Source: Sphingomicrobium flavum (GTDB lineage: Bacteria > Pseudomonadota > Alphaproteobacteria > Sphingomonadales > Sphingomonadaceae). Taken from it: a stretch of DNA of 64,000 bases. How positions within the stretch are numbered: the stretch's first letter is position 1; each line of letters opens with the position of its first letter. This document shows positions 51,576-55,702 of this stretch, piece by piece. A program made the translations under genes and the position numbers. The notes under the pieces are model-generated. The model had not been told where the DNA came from. It worked only from the letters and a program-made list of their open reading frames with translations, and made no database searches. The stretch spans positions 1,116,001 through 1,180,000 of the forward strand of contig NZ_CP102630.1 in NCBI RefSeq assembly GCF_024721605.1, in the 5' to 3' direction.

Positions 51576-51601
51576 GTAACCTTTTTGCGCCCTCCCACGA
51601 A
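51576..51601 (+). promoter_or_regulatory. SigF-type ECF promoter of the first bufferin gene
   Basis: GTAACC, exactly 16 nt, then CGAA. This is the promoter form described for Caulobacter SigF. It ends 55 nt before the first precursor gene. The same locus encodes an ECF sigma factor and NrsF-like anti-sigma factor, so autoregulation is likely. Confidence 0.75.
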
Positions 51602-51656
51602 TACCCGATCAGTGAGGCGCACGATGCGCCGCACGGGCACAATAGGGAGACCATCC

Positions 51657-51992
51657 ATGAAGAAGACCATTCCGGCACTTGCCGCAGCCTCAGCCTTGCT
51701 CGCCGCCTGTAGCGCCGAAGCACCCACCGAAACCGCCGCCGAAACCAACGTCACCGACGGCGCCGAAGTGATGGAAGCCGCCGCCGAAGGCGACAAGGTG
51801 AAATGCTTCGGCATCGCGCTCGCGGGCAAGAATGATTGCGCCGCCGGACCCGGCACCAGCTGCGCCGGCACATCCACCGTCGACTATCAGGGCAATGCCT
51901 GGACCTATGTCGAAGGCGGCGAAACAGCCTGCAACGCCGAAGGCGGGACCCTGACCGAGCAGGACAATAACGACCAGGGTCTCCCGGCTTAA
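51657..51992 (+). CDS. bufA: DUF2282 bufferin precursor with predicted lipoprotein signal
   Basis: 111 residues. A signal peptide ends in LLAAC, giving lipobox Cys18, followed by an acidic linker (about 20-47). The DUF2282 core has C50, C61, C69 and C92 ([21 protein letters not shown] then [11 protein letters not shown]). DUF2282 proteins are precursors of bufferins, copper-binding RiPPs matured by an MNIO enzyme. Known precursors have ordinary Sec signals; the lipobox here would anchor the product. AGGGAG precedes the ATG. The core DNA is nearly identical to the next gene. Confidence 0.85.
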
Positions 51993-52010
51993 CCGGCCTG
52001 CCCTGTCGTT

Positions 52011-52055
52011 CGCCCCGCCGGAAAGTTTCCGCTCCATGTAACTTCCGGCGGGGCG
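52011..52055 (+). terminator. Hairpin between the two bufferin genes, overlapping the second promoter
   Basis: CGCCCCGCCGGAAAG faces CTTCCGGCGGGGCG with a 16-nt loop and one bulge. No long T-tract. It may end or attenuate transcripts from the first promoter, and it overlaps the -35 and spacer of the second. Confidence 0.5.
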
Positions 52056-52063
52056 ATTTCGAA
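52038..52063 (+). promoter_or_regulatory. SigF-type ECF promoter of the second bufferin gene
   Basis: GTAACT, exactly 16 nt, then CGAA, differing in one base from the upstream copy. It lies 58 nt before the second precursor gene. The -35 sits in the 3' arm of the hairpin. Confidence 0.7.
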
Positions 52064-52121
52064 CAAACCGGAGAGTGACCGCCACGTCCTCGCCCCATCG
52101 TTGAAAAAGGAAGCACCAGAC

Positions 52122-52421
52122 ATGAAGAATATCGCCGCCATCACCGCCGCTTCGGCGCTTGTCGCCCTTTCCACCATTGCCGCCACTCCGGCCGCTGCCG
52201 ATCATCACGGCCAGAAAGCCGCCAAGGAAAAATGCTATGGCGTCGCCAAGGCCGGCAAGAATGATTGTGCGGCCGGACCCGGCACCAGCTGCGCCGGCAC
52301 CTCCAAGGTCGATTATCAGGGCAATGCCTGGAAATATGTCGACGGCAATGCATGCGAGAAGATGGGTGGTTCGCTCACCCCCAAGAAGGGCAATGCCAAG
52401 CCCGTTCCGCAGCAAGGCTGA
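52122..52421 (+). CDS. bufA: DUF2282 bufferin precursor, ordinary Sec signal
   Basis: 99 residues. Sec signal peptide [26 protein letters not shown] without a lipobox cysteine, then [19 protein letters not shown] and cysteines C38, C49, C57 and C78 in the DUF2282 pattern. The central two cysteines of such precursors are reported to become thiooxazole. AAAAAGGAAG precedes the ATG. It is followed after 6 nt by the MNIO gene. DNA from GGCAAGAATGATTG through the DYQGNAW codons nearly matches the first gene. Confidence 0.92.
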
Positions 52422-52427
52422 CCTTCG

Positions 52428-53297
52428 ATGACCGGCGCCTCGCACATACAGCCCCCACCGCCCGGCGGCGGAATCGGCTTGAAGTCAGAGCACTTCGCCG
52501 ATTTCCTCGACGCGGCGGCGCGGGGCGCCGGACCCCATTGGGCGGAAGTCCATCCGCAAAATTACATGATGGCGGGCGGCCCCATGCACCGCTGGCTGAC
52601 CGCGGTGCGCGAAGCCGTCCCCGTCAGTTTCCATAGCGTCGGCCTGTCGCTGGGCGATCCCGGCGGCGTCGATCTGGAAGAATTGGACCGCCTTGCCAAA
52701 CTGGTCGATCGCTACCAGCCTGCCTTGGTTTCCGACCATCTGTCATGGTCGAGCATTGACGGCGAAGCCTTCCCCGACCTCCTGCCGCTACCGATGACCA
52801 AGGCCAGCCTCGATCATTTCGCGCGCCAGGTGGATGTCGTGCAGGAACGGCTCGGCCGCCAGATGCTGATCGAAAATCCCAGCCGCATGATCGCCTTTTC
52901 GGGCGATGAATATGCCGAAGAAAATTTCCTCGCCGAGCTGGTGCGCCGCACCGGCTGCGGCCTCATCATCGACGTCAACAATGTCATCGTCCAGCAGATC
53001 AACCTGGGCATCGATCCGGTCGCCTATCTTGATTCCATCGACCCCGCTGCCGTGGGCGAAATCCATGTCGCGGGTCATGCCCTCGAAGATCATGACGGCG
53101 AATTGCTGGCGATCGACGATCATGGTTCGCCGGTCAGCGACGAATGCTGGTCGCTGCTCGAACATTTTCTCGATCGCATTGGCCCGCGCCCCGTGCTGGT
53201 CGAGCGCGACAATGCTATCCCCGCTTTTGCGGAACTCGCCGCCGAAGCCGCGCGCGCCGATGCCATCTGCCAACGGAGCCTCGCACATGCAGCCTGA
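52428..53297 (+). CDS. bufB: MNIO family (DUF692) RiPP-modifying enzyme of the bufferin pathway
   Basis: 289 residues. TIM-barrel-like with metal ligands in VSDHLSWS, LIENPSRM, CGLIIDVNNVIVQQ, EIHVAGHA and the DDHGSPVSDECW segment, all DUF692/MNIO blocks. MNIO enzymes use two or three irons to oxidise precursor cysteines. Its substrates should be the two DUF2282 peptides directly upstream. It overlaps bufC by 11 nt. Confidence 0.93.
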   Translation: MTGASHIQPPPPGGGIGLKSEHFADFLDAAARGAGPHWAEVHPQNYMMAGGPMHRWLTAVREAVPVSFHSVGLSLGDPGGVDLEELDRLAKLVDRYQPALVSDHLSWSSIDGEAFPDLLPLPMTKASLDHFARQVDVVQERLGRQMLIENPSRMIAFSGDEYAEENFLAELVRRTGCGLIIDVNNVIVQQINLGIDPVAYLDSIDPAAVGEIHVAGHALEDHDGELLAIDDHGSPVSDECWSLLEHFLDRIGPRPVLVERDNAIPAFAELAAEAARADAICQRSLAHAA

Positions 53298-53976
53298 ACT
53301 CCAGCAGCATATGCGCGACGTGATCGCCGGCGGGCCTGCATTACTCGATGAAAACATGTTCGTCGGCAGCCGCGCGGCCAAGCTGCGGGCCCTTCGCGCC
53401 CATGCCAACACGATCAGCCATGTCCGCTTCGTCGCCATGGAGGATAGCTTCCCCATGTTGCGCGAACGCATGGGCGATGAACTGTTCCATGCTGCAGCAC
53501 GCATCCACCTTGAAGACCCCGCCATTCGCGCCCTGACCCTGCGGCTGATCGGGCGCGGGTTTTCCGCACGGCTTGAAGATCCCGTCCTGGCCGATCTTGC
53601 CGATGCCGAATGGGCCATGCTGCAATCCTACGGCGCCGCCGAAGCCCCCGCCATCGAGCTGGCTACGCTGCGCGGCTTGGACGCGGAGACTTTGGTCGGC
53701 GCGCGCGTTGCGCTGCACCCTGCTGCGATCATCATGACGCTGCGCGAACCCGCCGCGTTCAGCTGGCCCGGCATGCCGGACAGCGAAGCGCCGCACCTTC
53801 TCATCACCCGCCCTGCCGCCGAGCGCCGCCTTGTGCAGGTCAGCGACGGCGTCGCTGCCCTTGTCGAACGGGCGCAGCGCACCGTCACCATGGGCGAATT
53901 GTTCGAAATCGACGCCGAGGGCGTCACCACCCTTGTCCACCTTGGCGCATTGCGCCCCCAATTGGAGCTGATCTGA
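53287..53976 (+). CDS. bufC: DUF2063 (HvfC/BufC) family partner protein of the MNIO enzyme
   Basis: 229 residues from MQPELQQHMRDVIAGGPALL. The N-terminal DUF2063 domain has VGSRAAKLRALRAHANTISHVRFVAMEDSFPMLRERMGDE, then a second domain with LHPAAIIMTL. These proteins bind the precursor leader and present it to the MNIO enzyme. They are sometimes labelled DNA-binding domain-containing. Starts 11 nt within bufB and shares its stop TGA with the next ATG. Confidence 0.9.
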   Translation: MQPELQQHMRDVIAGGPALLDENMFVGSRAAKLRALRAHANTISHVRFVAMEDSFPMLRERMGDELFHAAARIHLEDPAIRALTLRLIGRGFSARLEDPVLADLADAEWAMLQSYGAAEAPAIELATLRGLDAETLVGARVALHPAAIIMTLREPAAFSWPGMPDSEAPHLLITRPAAERRLVQVSDGVAALVERAQRTVTMGELFEIDAEGVTTLVHLGALRPQLELI

Positions 53977-54425
53977 TGCGCGCAACCTGGAAGAAACTGA
54001 CCGATTTTGCAGATCAACCGCTGATTCAGGACCTGGTCCTGCTCTTCACCCGTATCGGGCTAGGCGCCATCTTCTGGCGCTCGGCGCGCACCAAGGTGGA
54101 AGAGGGCAGCTTGCTCGAGCTGAGCGACACCACCTTCTTCCTGTTTGAGGAAGAATATGCCGGTGTGCCGCTGCCCAGCGATTTTGCAGCCTATGCCGCC
54201 ACCTATGCCGAACATTTGCTGCCCATCATGCTCCTGATTGGCCTTGGTAGCCGCTTTGCCGCAGCGGGCCTTATCGTGATGACGCTTGTGATCCAGCTCT
54301 TCGTCTATCCCGACGCCTGGTGGTCGCCGCACATGGGCTGGGTCGCGCTCGGCCTCGTCATCCTGACGCAGGGCCCGGGGCGCCTCTCGCTTGATCAACT
54401 GATTGCCGGTAAGAAGAGCGCATGA
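53976..54425 (+). CDS. DoxX family membrane protein
   Basis: 149 residues. About four TM helices. LLFTRIGLGAIFWRSARTKVEEG is the DoxX opening, and HLLPIMLLIGLGSRFAAAGLIVMTLVIQLFVYPDAW fits the family. DoxX proteins commonly accompany DUF692/DUF2063/DUF2282 genes and may help redox handling in the membrane. It overlaps both neighbours by 1-4 nt. Confidence 0.9.
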   Translation: MRATWKKLTDFADQPLIQDLVLLFTRIGLGAIFWRSARTKVEEGSLLELSDTTFFLFEEEYAGVPLPSDFAAYAATYAEHLLPIMLLIGLGSRFAAAGLIVMTLVIQLFVYPDAWWSPHMGWVALGLVILTQGPGRLSLDQLIAGKKSA

Positions 54426-54946
54426 TCCTTGCCGAAGAGGATATTCGTCGCCTGATGGCGGCGGGGCAGCGGGGTGACCGCAAGGCCTATCGCGCCTGCC
54501 TGACAGGCGCGAGCGAATGGCTGTCGCGCTTCTTCGCCCGCCGTATCGCGCCGCATATGGTCGATGATCTAGTCCAGGAGGTGCTGATCAGCCTGCACGC
54601 CAAGCGCGCCAGCTATGACGCCGACCGACCCTTCTATCCTTGGCTGGCGGCCATTGCGCGCTATCGCTGGATCGACCAGCTGCGCAAGTTGCAGCGCATG
54701 CCCGAAGAAGATGCCGATGCCGTCCCCAGCGAGGACAGCCACGAGGAGTCGGTGCTGTCGCGCCTCAGCCTCGACCGGCTGATGACCCATATCCCTCAGG
54801 GACAGGCGCAGGCCATTACCCTGACCAAGATCGAGGGGCGCTCCATCAGCGAGACCGCCCAGATGACCGGCCAGTCGGAATCGCTGGTGAAAGTGAATAT
54901 TCATCGCGGCCTCAAGAAGCTGGCCTCGTTCGTAGAAAGTGACTGA
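54422..54946 (+). CDS. ECF sigma factor (SigF-like)
   Basis: 174 residues. Region 2 has DDLVQEVLISLHAKRASYDADRPFYPWLAAIARYRWIDQLRK; region 4 has LTKIEGRSISETAQMTGQSESLVKVNIHRGLKKL. It begins within the doxX stop (ATGA) and is followed by an NrsF-like anti-sigma factor. It probably recognises the two GTAAC-N16-CGAA promoters in this locus. Confidence 0.93.
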   Translation: MILAEEDIRRLMAAGQRGDRKAYRACLTGASEWLSRFFARRIAPHMVDDLVQEVLISLHAKRASYDADRPFYPWLAAIARYRWIDQLRKLQRMPEEDADAVPSEDSHEESVLSRLSLDRLMTHIPQGQAQAITLTKIEGRSISETAQMTGQSESLVKVNIHRGLKKLASFVESD

Positions 54947-54947
54947 G

Positions 54948-55577
54948 ATGAAGAGTGATTTCCTGATCGACAGCCTGGCCGACAGCGCCGAGCCTGTACG
55001 CCCCATGTCGGTGGGGCAGAGCCGGCTGATGCTTGGCGGTGCGGCATTGTTCACGGTGGTGGCCGTGCTGGTCCTGTTCGGACCGCGCGTCGATCTGGCG
55101 CAGGGAACAGCCTCGCCTGTGATCTTGATGATTGCCGGTCTCTTTGCCTTGGCCGCAGTAGCCTCCGGCTGGGCCGCGACCCGGCTAGCCCAGCCCGCCG
55201 TCGGCGGCAGCCAGCATGGCGCGCTCTGGACGGTCGGCGCGATCGCATTGCTGCCCGCCATCAGCCTGATCGAATTTCTGCTCGGCAATCTGGCCCCGGC
55301 AGAGCCGGAAGGCGTCATAAACTGCCTGACTTATGGCACGCTTTCCAGCCTGGTGACGCTGGCCGTGCTGACCTGGCGGCTGAAGAAGGGCGCCCCTGTC
55401 CTGCCGGAACGGGCCGGTCTTTATGCAGGCCTTGCTGCCGGCGCGGTCGGTGCCTTCGCCATCACGCTGGAATGCAATTTCGACGGCCTGGCCCATATGA
55501 CGCTCGGCCATGTCGGTGTCGTCGCCACCATGGCAATGATCGGCCGGTTCGGCATTTCGCGTCTCATTCGCTGGTAG
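54948..55577 (+). CDS. NrsF family (DUF1109) anti-sigma factor
   Basis: 209 residues with six TM helices. Conserved cysteines C126 (GVINCLTYG) and C176 (TLECNFDG) are 50 residues apart, the same spacing I recall for the two metal-sensing cysteines of Caulobacter NrsF. Such proteins hold SigF at the membrane and release it on metal or oxidative stress. The frame is also open from a GTG at 54939. Last gene of the bufferin run. Confidence 0.87.
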   Translation: MKSDFLIDSLADSAEPVRPMSVGQSRLMLGGAALFTVVAVLVLFGPRVDLAQGTASPVILMIAGLFALAAVASGWAATRLAQPAVGGSQHGALWTVGAIALLPAISLIEFLLGNLAPAEPEGVINCLTYGTLSSLVTLAVLTWRLKKGAPVLPERAGLYAGLAAGAVGAFAITLECNFDGLAHMTLGHVGVVATMAMIGRFGISRLIRW

Positions 55578-55625
55578 TTCTTGCTCCGCTACTCCCTCTT
55601 CGGTAGGGGGCGTTGGCTAGCAAGA

Positions 55626-55702
<77 letters not shown>

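Follow-up and report, generated by a model that had tools for sequence, protein, structure and literature searches.

How is a bufferin operon that carries the gene of its own sigma factor controlled, and does that sigma factor serve the operon alone? The question is raised by a locus of Sphingomicrobium flavum, which lies in a stretch of 64,000 nucleotides (nt) hereafter called the window (positions 1,116,001-1,180,000 of a single 2.34-Mb contig). Here two DUF2282 precursor genes, bufA1 and bufA2, are followed on the + strand by genes for MNIO, DUF2063, DoxX, an extracytoplasmic function (ECF) sigma factor and NrsF. A preliminary description of this DNA had reported the same order, with an exact GTAACY-N16-CGAA motif before each precursor gene, and we confirmed both at the positions given below. 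The locus is very probably a Buf1-type bufferin operon with its own sigma factor of the SigF/ECF16 type and an NrsF anti-sigma factor. The first of the two motifs is well supported as a SigF promoter, and comparison with related operons suggests a further promoter, hidden within the DUF2063 coding sequence, that drives sigF-nrsF in these relatives.

A bufferin operon with a SigF-NrsF pair

The genes of the operon and their profile matches are as follows.

51657..51992, + strand: bufA1, DUF2282 bufferin precursor, 111 amino acids (aa) (Pfam PF10048, 67.7 bits)
52122..52421, + strand: bufA2, DUF2282 bufferin precursor, 99 aa (Pfam PF10048, 80 bits)
52428..53297, + strand: MNIO maturase, BufB (NCBIfam NF050167, 335.3 bits, cut-off 310; Pfam, 311 bits)
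53287..53976, + strand: DUF2063 partner protein, BufC (Pfam PF09836, 32.8 bits, cut-off 27.2)
53976..54425, + strand: DoxX-family membrane protein (Pfam PF07681, 57.3 bits)
54422..54946, + strand: ECF sigma factor, SigF/ECF16 type, 174 aa (Pfam Sigma70_r2 and r4_2, and r4)
54939..55577, + strand: NrsF anti-sigma factor (Pfam PF06532, 115.7 bits)

The locus combines the features of a Buf1 cluster: DUF2282 precursors with four core cysteines, a BufB-type MNIO, which exceeds the NCBIfam equivalog cut-off for BufB, and a DUF2063 partner. Two further NCBIfam scores fell under their cut-offs (bufA2 against the BufA2 model, 32 of 60 bits; DoxX against HvfX, 49 of 80), and the NCBIfam search gave no match for bufA1. 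A profile search of the genome returned only bufA1 and bufA2 as DUF2282 matches. The genes from MNIO through NrsF overlap, with 8 bp shared between the sigma factor and NrsF if the latter starts at GTG, or a 1-nt gap if it starts at ATG 54948; the gaps upstream measure 129 nt (bufA1-bufA2) and 6 nt (bufA2-MNIO). For bufA1 we preferred ATG 51657 to another in-frame ATG 33 nt upstream because the signal peptide begins there.

The sigma factor has regions 2 and 4 only, adjoins an NrsF/DUF1109 gene and is accompanied by consensus sites; its region-4 stretch QSESLVKVNIHRG is largely conserved in 12 aligned relatives, and its closest named match is that of Sphingomicrobium lutaoense (L151; 79% identity). 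NrsF, the single match to this family in the genome, carries Cys129 and Cys179 (counted from the GTG), and a cysteine pair 50 residues apart was found in 30 of 30 NrsF proteins. These features support by inference the earlier assignment of the pair to the Caulobacter SigF/ECF16 type.

The site before the first precursor gene

Two candidate promoters and a hairpin precede the precursor genes.

51576..51601, + strand: site 1 (P1), CGTAACC-N16-CGAA, SigF/ECF16-type candidate promoter before bufA1 (exact match)
52038..52063, + strand: site 2 (P2), TGTAACT-N16-CGAA, candidate promoter before bufA2 (exact match)
52010..52056, + strand: strong hairpin in the bufA1-bufA2 gap, which may act as an attenuator or mark an mRNA end (folding)

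Both sites fit the published ECF16 consensus, (T/C)GTAAC-N17-CGAA (PMC8315932), and they are the only two matches to GTAACY-N16-CGAA in the window when spacers of N15-17 are allowed; 0.19 matches were expected, and none of 100 shuffles reached two. Site 1 has the highest position weight matrix (PWM) score in the window, 24.0. Conservation points the same way. The related operons compared form a deduplicated set of 53 in which the genes run bufA-MNIO-DUF2063-DoxX-SigF. An exact site precedes the first precursor in 50 of them, every one with N17 after GTAAC; L086, L142 and L173 lack it. Within the genus, site 1 was found in 11 of the 12 operon loci fetched, L142, which is without a lipobox precursor, being the exception. 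Thirty-three of the 50 operons have 47-59 nt between the end of the site and the first in-frame ATG. The corresponding interval in the window measures 22 nt, or 55 nt if counted to ATG 51657.

The region that holds site 1 is shared with a divergent gene for a polyhydroxybutyrate (PHB) accumulation regulator (PF07879/PF05233; 50974-51489, - strand).

The second site and the intergenic hairpin

The preliminary description had the sigma factor reading both promoters. This is well supported for site 1; site 2 is the weaker of the two, because it is present in only three of six tandem-precursor Sphingomicrobium loci (the window, L081 and L144; absent from L140, L141 and L143) and lies in a hairpin arm. 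Site 2 overlaps the 3' arm of this hairpin; the 91-nt stretch that contains the hairpin has a folding energy of -39.5 kcal/mol (z score -3.4), and 1 of 200 shuffles was equally stable. For the same reasons the letters of site 2 may serve RNA structure. The folds of nine tandem loci ranged from z scores of -5.8 to +1.2 on mononucleotide shuffles (-1.4 for a 162-nt stretch of the window) and were stable in L082, L083, L143 and L144 but not in L140, L141 and L084; because these hairpins vary, we claim no common RNA structure. An intrinsic terminator between the precursors was considered and rejected, since the tail is U-poor and the terminator scan made no call there.

The place of site 2 in the hairpin and its absence from three loci lend weight to an alternative in which site 1 alone is a promoter of SigF, site 2 arises incidentally from the hairpin, and the whole operon, sigF-nrsF included, is transcribed from P1 plus a weak housekeeping start. 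Most related operons, moreover, have no site between precursor and MNIO. This alternative is a serious contender, at a little under an even chance. Set against it are the exact sites of L081 and L144, which lie at the same place as site 2 although their spacers have diverged, and the quality of site 2 itself, which fits TGTAAC-N17-CGAA and whose PWM score of 16.0 is well above that of the next window match (11.5). On balance, we favor site 2 as a real second promoter, with modest confidence.

Comparison with known SigF-NrsF systems

Published systems place the window locus in a known kind. In Caulobacter crescentus, SigF-NrsF control CC3254-3257 (DUF2282, DUF692, DUF2063 and DoxX) and CC2907-2905; the same gene set is SigF dependent, its GTAACC-N16-CGAA promoters were mapped by 5' rapid amplification of cDNA ends, and NrsF works through C131 and C181 (PMC3511200). 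That Caulobacter SigF-NrsF control such genes through this form of promoter, as the preliminary description had stated, is thus published. Copper induces the genes of the Caulobacter regulon, among them sigF, and mutation of sigF causes copper sensitivity (PMC8224329). The Caulobacter regulon (CC3253-CC3252, CC3254-3257, CC2907-2905 and CC2748) resembles the window in gene families and promoter form, its NrsF shares the spacing of 50 residues between cysteines, and a role in metal stress is published for that regulon. The two differ in that Caulobacter sigF-nrsF form a separate unit with its own promoter, whereas the window pair ends the bufferin operon; in that the window has two precursors in one operon, one of them with a lipobox; and in that the window genome, unlike that of Caulobacter, has no PF00174 (MsrP-type) match, its best unlinked candidate target being a thioredoxin-like gene.

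In Sinorhizobium meliloti, RpoE7-EcfR7 and SMb20530-20527 are likewise an ECF16 system with a DUF692/DUF2063 operon and GTAAC...CGAA motifs. RpoE7 appears to activate both itself and the DUF692 operon, which, unlike the genes of the window, is divergent (PMC6180224). Buf1 clusters (DUF2282-MNIO-DUF2063-DoxX, some with sigma factor and NrsF genes and with tandem precursors) have been described and share all these elements with the window (PMC12452194); the word "promoter" is absent from the main text of that paper. The Cupriavidus gig/dax and Legionella GIG operons are related, metal-induced gene clusters (PMC8224329).

A different alternative sigma factor might read the sites while SigF-NrsF serve other targets. 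The genome has six matches above a broad ECF/sigma-70 cut-off (nine in all), some of them possibly housekeeping or other factors, and the sigF promoter of Caulobacter is read by a further, unknown factor as well (PMC3511200). This explanation is nevertheless improbable: the sole NrsF of the genome is linked to the sites, experiments on homologues support this motif, and the motif mostly travels with sigF-nrsF through operon, divergent and sigF-only arrangements, apart from a few sigF-nrsF loci that lack an exact site.

A motif embedded in DUF2063 of related operons

Of the 53 related operons, 43 carry an exact site within DUF2063 itself, in coding sequence upstream of doxX-sigF-nrsF. By contrast, 44 DUF2063 genes that are followed by neither doxX nor sigF hold no such site. 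(Near-duplicates were dropped, as were open reading frames [ORFs] that run for less than 150 aa from the start of the domain; this reduced the DUF2063 set from 109 to 101.) A common alignment column holds 40 of the 43 sites; that of L149 lies 7 columns upstream and those of L081 and L144 lie 59 columns upstream.

The DNA is kept while the encoded residues vary, which points to a promoter. The residue before the Asn is Gly in 32, Arg in 5, Ser in 3 and Cys in 3, yet the codon before AAC is NGT in all 43, against an NGT share of 18% among the NGY codons of the same operons. Synonymous recoding that respects the protein and the codon usage of each operon would be expected to keep 0.8 of the 43 sites. 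We also ranked spaced 9-letter words by conservation in 42 operons, a set that deliberately excludes 11 Sphingomicrobium operons. Across 773 positions of the DUF2063 codon alignment, GTAAC plus CGAA was the most conserved word (0.95; next, 0.79), and the best words in MNIO (947 positions) and DoxX (443 positions) reached 0.71 and 0.69.

That the motif is kept for its protein sequence (x-N-L...E) is very improbable: site-bearing operons necessarily encode Asn and Glu at the motif, and a preceding hydrophobic residue is usual, but the codon before AAC is always NGT although it encodes four different residues, the codon before GAA, which ends in C by the motif, encodes ten, recoding would leave almost no site, and the site-free DUF2063 genes shown, which neither doxX nor sigF follows, encode no Asn at this place. 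Constraint on a promoter for sigF-nrsF would be enough to dictate codons, and probably residues too, in these operons. Among the papers listed by our literature search on DUF2063, DoxX and the sigma factor, none mentions an internal promoter.

Examples of the embedded site at DUF2063 3' ends are L082, L084, L088-L098, L154, L155 and L157-L161. Four DUF2063 genes have DoxX with no SigF found downstream, and one of these, L100, holds a site, perhaps as a leftover or as a doxX promoter.

Absence of the common embedded site in Sphingomicrobium

The window itself does not follow this pattern. At the position of the NGT AAC of its relatives, its DUF2063 gene reads GGC GAA TTG. On the + strand of 53300-55600, no match with the right spacer and at most one mismatch was found; a right-spacer match at 53843 has two mismatches, and two one-mismatch matches have the wrong spacers, N15 and N19. 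Nor does the + strand of this region contain any of the 25 highest-scoring PWM matches of the window. A hidden internal promoter in the window DUF2063 or DoxX gene was thus looked for by motif and by PWM and not found. Because the embedded site is absent, sigF-nrsF of the window would rely on the upstream promoters or on an unrecognised start.

Absence at the common position extends to the whole genus sample. We compared 12 operon-type loci of Sphingomicrobium, a genus in which 31 of 71 genomes have a DUF2282 match. In a SigF plus MNIO tree of 93 rows, the 53 rows of operon-type loci group in a single clade (support 100/100), and the window falls within a Sphingomicrobium clade of 12 rows (support 100/99). 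The site in the common column is present in none of these 12 and in 40 of the 41 other operons, L202 being the exception; three of the 12 (L149, L081 and L144) carry a site elsewhere in DUF2063. The simplest reading of these sequences is that the common site was lost on the way to Sphingomicrobium and that new sites were gained in two sublineages, although the tree has a midpoint root for drawing only and the direction of change is beyond its proof. The absence of the common site from one genus makes the feedback design testable across species.

An unlinked thioredoxin-like gene as a candidate target

The preliminary description had called the locus self-contained and proposed a genome-wide search for the motif. 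The search gave eight exact sites: the two in the operon, a third, L002, that is also well placed, and five unconvincing ones. L002 is the only one of the six sites outside the operon with a convincing downstream gene.

G000:C1:502919-503399 (L002 1043-1526, L270), outside the window: thioredoxin-like gene, followed by a DsbD_TM/CcdA-like gene; exact site 29 nt upstream

The thioredoxin-like gene has a lipobox, judged by eye. In a family-level search, close homologues (E <= 1e-15) were found in 21 of 199 genomes, at 25 loci including its own, and GTAAC-N16-18-CGAA lies within 420 nt upstream of the match at 15 of the 25, again including its own; the other 10 have none. Fourteen of these sites have an N17 spacer and one (L307) has N16, and 14 of the 15 lie 93-159 nt from the match. 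In Sphingomicrobium, homologues L271 and L276 have one-mismatch sites only. In seven of these 21 genomes (G007, G011, G100, G114, G123, G182 and G197), no more than 10 kb separates the gene from NrsF.

On sequence evidence the operon appears not to be fully self-contained, because this unlinked gene has a well-placed site that homologues share. Probably, SigF also controls the unlinked pair of a secreted thioredoxin and a DsbD-like protein. Our literature search found no thioredoxin target of a sigma factor of the SigF/NrsF type; in PMC3511200 and PMC8224329, "thioredoxin" occurs under the general stress response only, and the other papers returned do not contain the word. The gene pair, a predicted new branch of the regulon, is relevant both to sensing by NrsF and to its resetting; together with the embedded promoter of the relatives, it makes up the parts of this system that would look new to a specialist.

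The five remaining exact sites were rejected as promoters. L003 and L007 fall within long ORFs, and L004 spans a start codon; L001 coincides with short + strand ORFs, and no gene begins shortly after it; L008 precedes an ORF that has no Pfam match and runs opposite to other ORFs. MsrPQ as a second target, as in Caulobacter, was likewise rejected, there being no PF00174 match in the genome.

A feedback model and the evidence that bears on it

We propose that copper or another thiol-reactive stress would act on the membrane protein NrsF and release SigF. Freed SigF would transcribe from P1, yielding a lipid-anchored precursor (bufA1) and a soluble periplasmic one (bufA2), whose core cysteines MNIO plus DUF2063 would turn into copper-binding thiooxazoles. 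Since this transcript ends with sigF-nrsF, SigF would raise its own level and that of NrsF. In the window, the hairpin may partly end or stabilise the P1 transcript, and P2 could supply the maturation and regulator genes. In most related operons, the nearer promoter for sigF-nrsF in the 3' coding sequence of DUF2063 would take part and fix codon choice there.

In its fullest form, the model would have the embedded promoter drive sigF-nrsF across Sphingomonadaceae and shape residues of DUF2063; SigF-made thioredoxin and its DsbD-like donor would re-reduce the cysteines of NrsF or of the precursors and so reset the switch; and Sphingomicrobium would have dropped the common promoter and been rewired through other sites. 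As a whole this scheme is doubtful, and a role of the thioredoxin in resetting the NrsF cysteines is speculation. If true, the scheme would amount to positive feedback in transcription that is closed by negative feedback through redox state.

Several observations weigh against the model or parts of it. Caulobacter sigF is not strongly autoregulated under Cr or Cd (PMC3511200), and peroxide, Cd and chromate elicited no response from rpoE7 of S. meliloti or from its target (PMC6180224). The positive loop under metal stress that the preliminary description had proposed thus finds support in the copper induction of Caulobacter sigF and is weakened by these Cr and Cd results, and strong self-activation of the window operon is not guaranteed. 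The window NrsF scores 39 bits against the NCBIfam model for the Caulobacter type (AntiSigF_NrsF), whose equivalog cut-off is 300. A housekeeping start for basal sigF expression is not conspicuous, with one promoter-like match where 1.0 was expected, and site 2 has the shortcomings described above, namely its absence from half of the tandem-precursor loci and its place in a hairpin. For the embedded site, G stands at -1 in 32 of 43 cases, against T/C in the published consensus; L100 (G001:C5:453500-461500) has the site in a DUF2063-DoxX arrangement with no sigF found downstream in the fetched stretch; and the operons are related by ancestry, so that the counts are of non-independent events. 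Finally, the motif is not enriched in the genome, in its exact form (8 sites against 11 for a reversed control) or in a relaxed one (18 against 86). We therefore rejected motif counts as evidence, and the case rests on placement and conservation.

Predicted lipidated and soluble precursors

The bufA1 product is predicted to be a lipoprotein: it has a lipobox (LAAC, with the Cys near residue 18, by pattern only) in addition to the four core cysteines, whereas bufA2 has four cysteines and an ordinary signal peptide, judged by eye. By the same pattern, the first precursor has a lipobox in 10 of the 12 Sphingomicrobium operon loci (exceptions L142 and L149), in L145-L148 as the sole precursor, and a lipobox was found in 21 of 146 distinct precursor N termini of the set. 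Lipidated bufferins have been predicted before (PMC12636315; for Buf2 in PMC12452194), which makes the lipobox of the window precursor an extension of earlier work. Lipoprotein signals are given for about 16% of Buf2, and section 14 of the same paper carries no figure for Buf1 (PMC12452194). The recurrent pair of a lipobox-bearing and a soluble precursor suggests copper buffering at two places in the envelope. Paired lipobox DUF2282 precursors were also seen in L116, L117 and L118, where no MNIO was found in the fetched stretch and a bufferin operon lies elsewhere in the genome.

Other arrangements and neighboring genes

In another ARRANGEMENTS, seen in many loci, mainly of Erythrobacteraceae, two back-to-back sites separate an MNIO-DUF2063 unit from a bufA-DoxX-SigF-NrsF unit. 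SigF-NrsF stand alone with a site at nine loci, and a few SigF-NrsF pairs lack an exact site. A class-level survey of best matches covered 29 NrsF loci, 27 of them outside the family of the window, and found a DUF2282 gene divergent from sigF in 13 of the 29; its stretches of 2.3 to 3.6 kb are too short for the embedded form to be judged. In the window, a tRNA-Arg(CCG) gene at 55626-55702, directly 3' of nrsF, may mark a module boundary. Two loci, L204 and L222, are sphingomonad-like bufferin/SigF loci under Microbulbifer titles and may reflect horizontal transfer or contamination.

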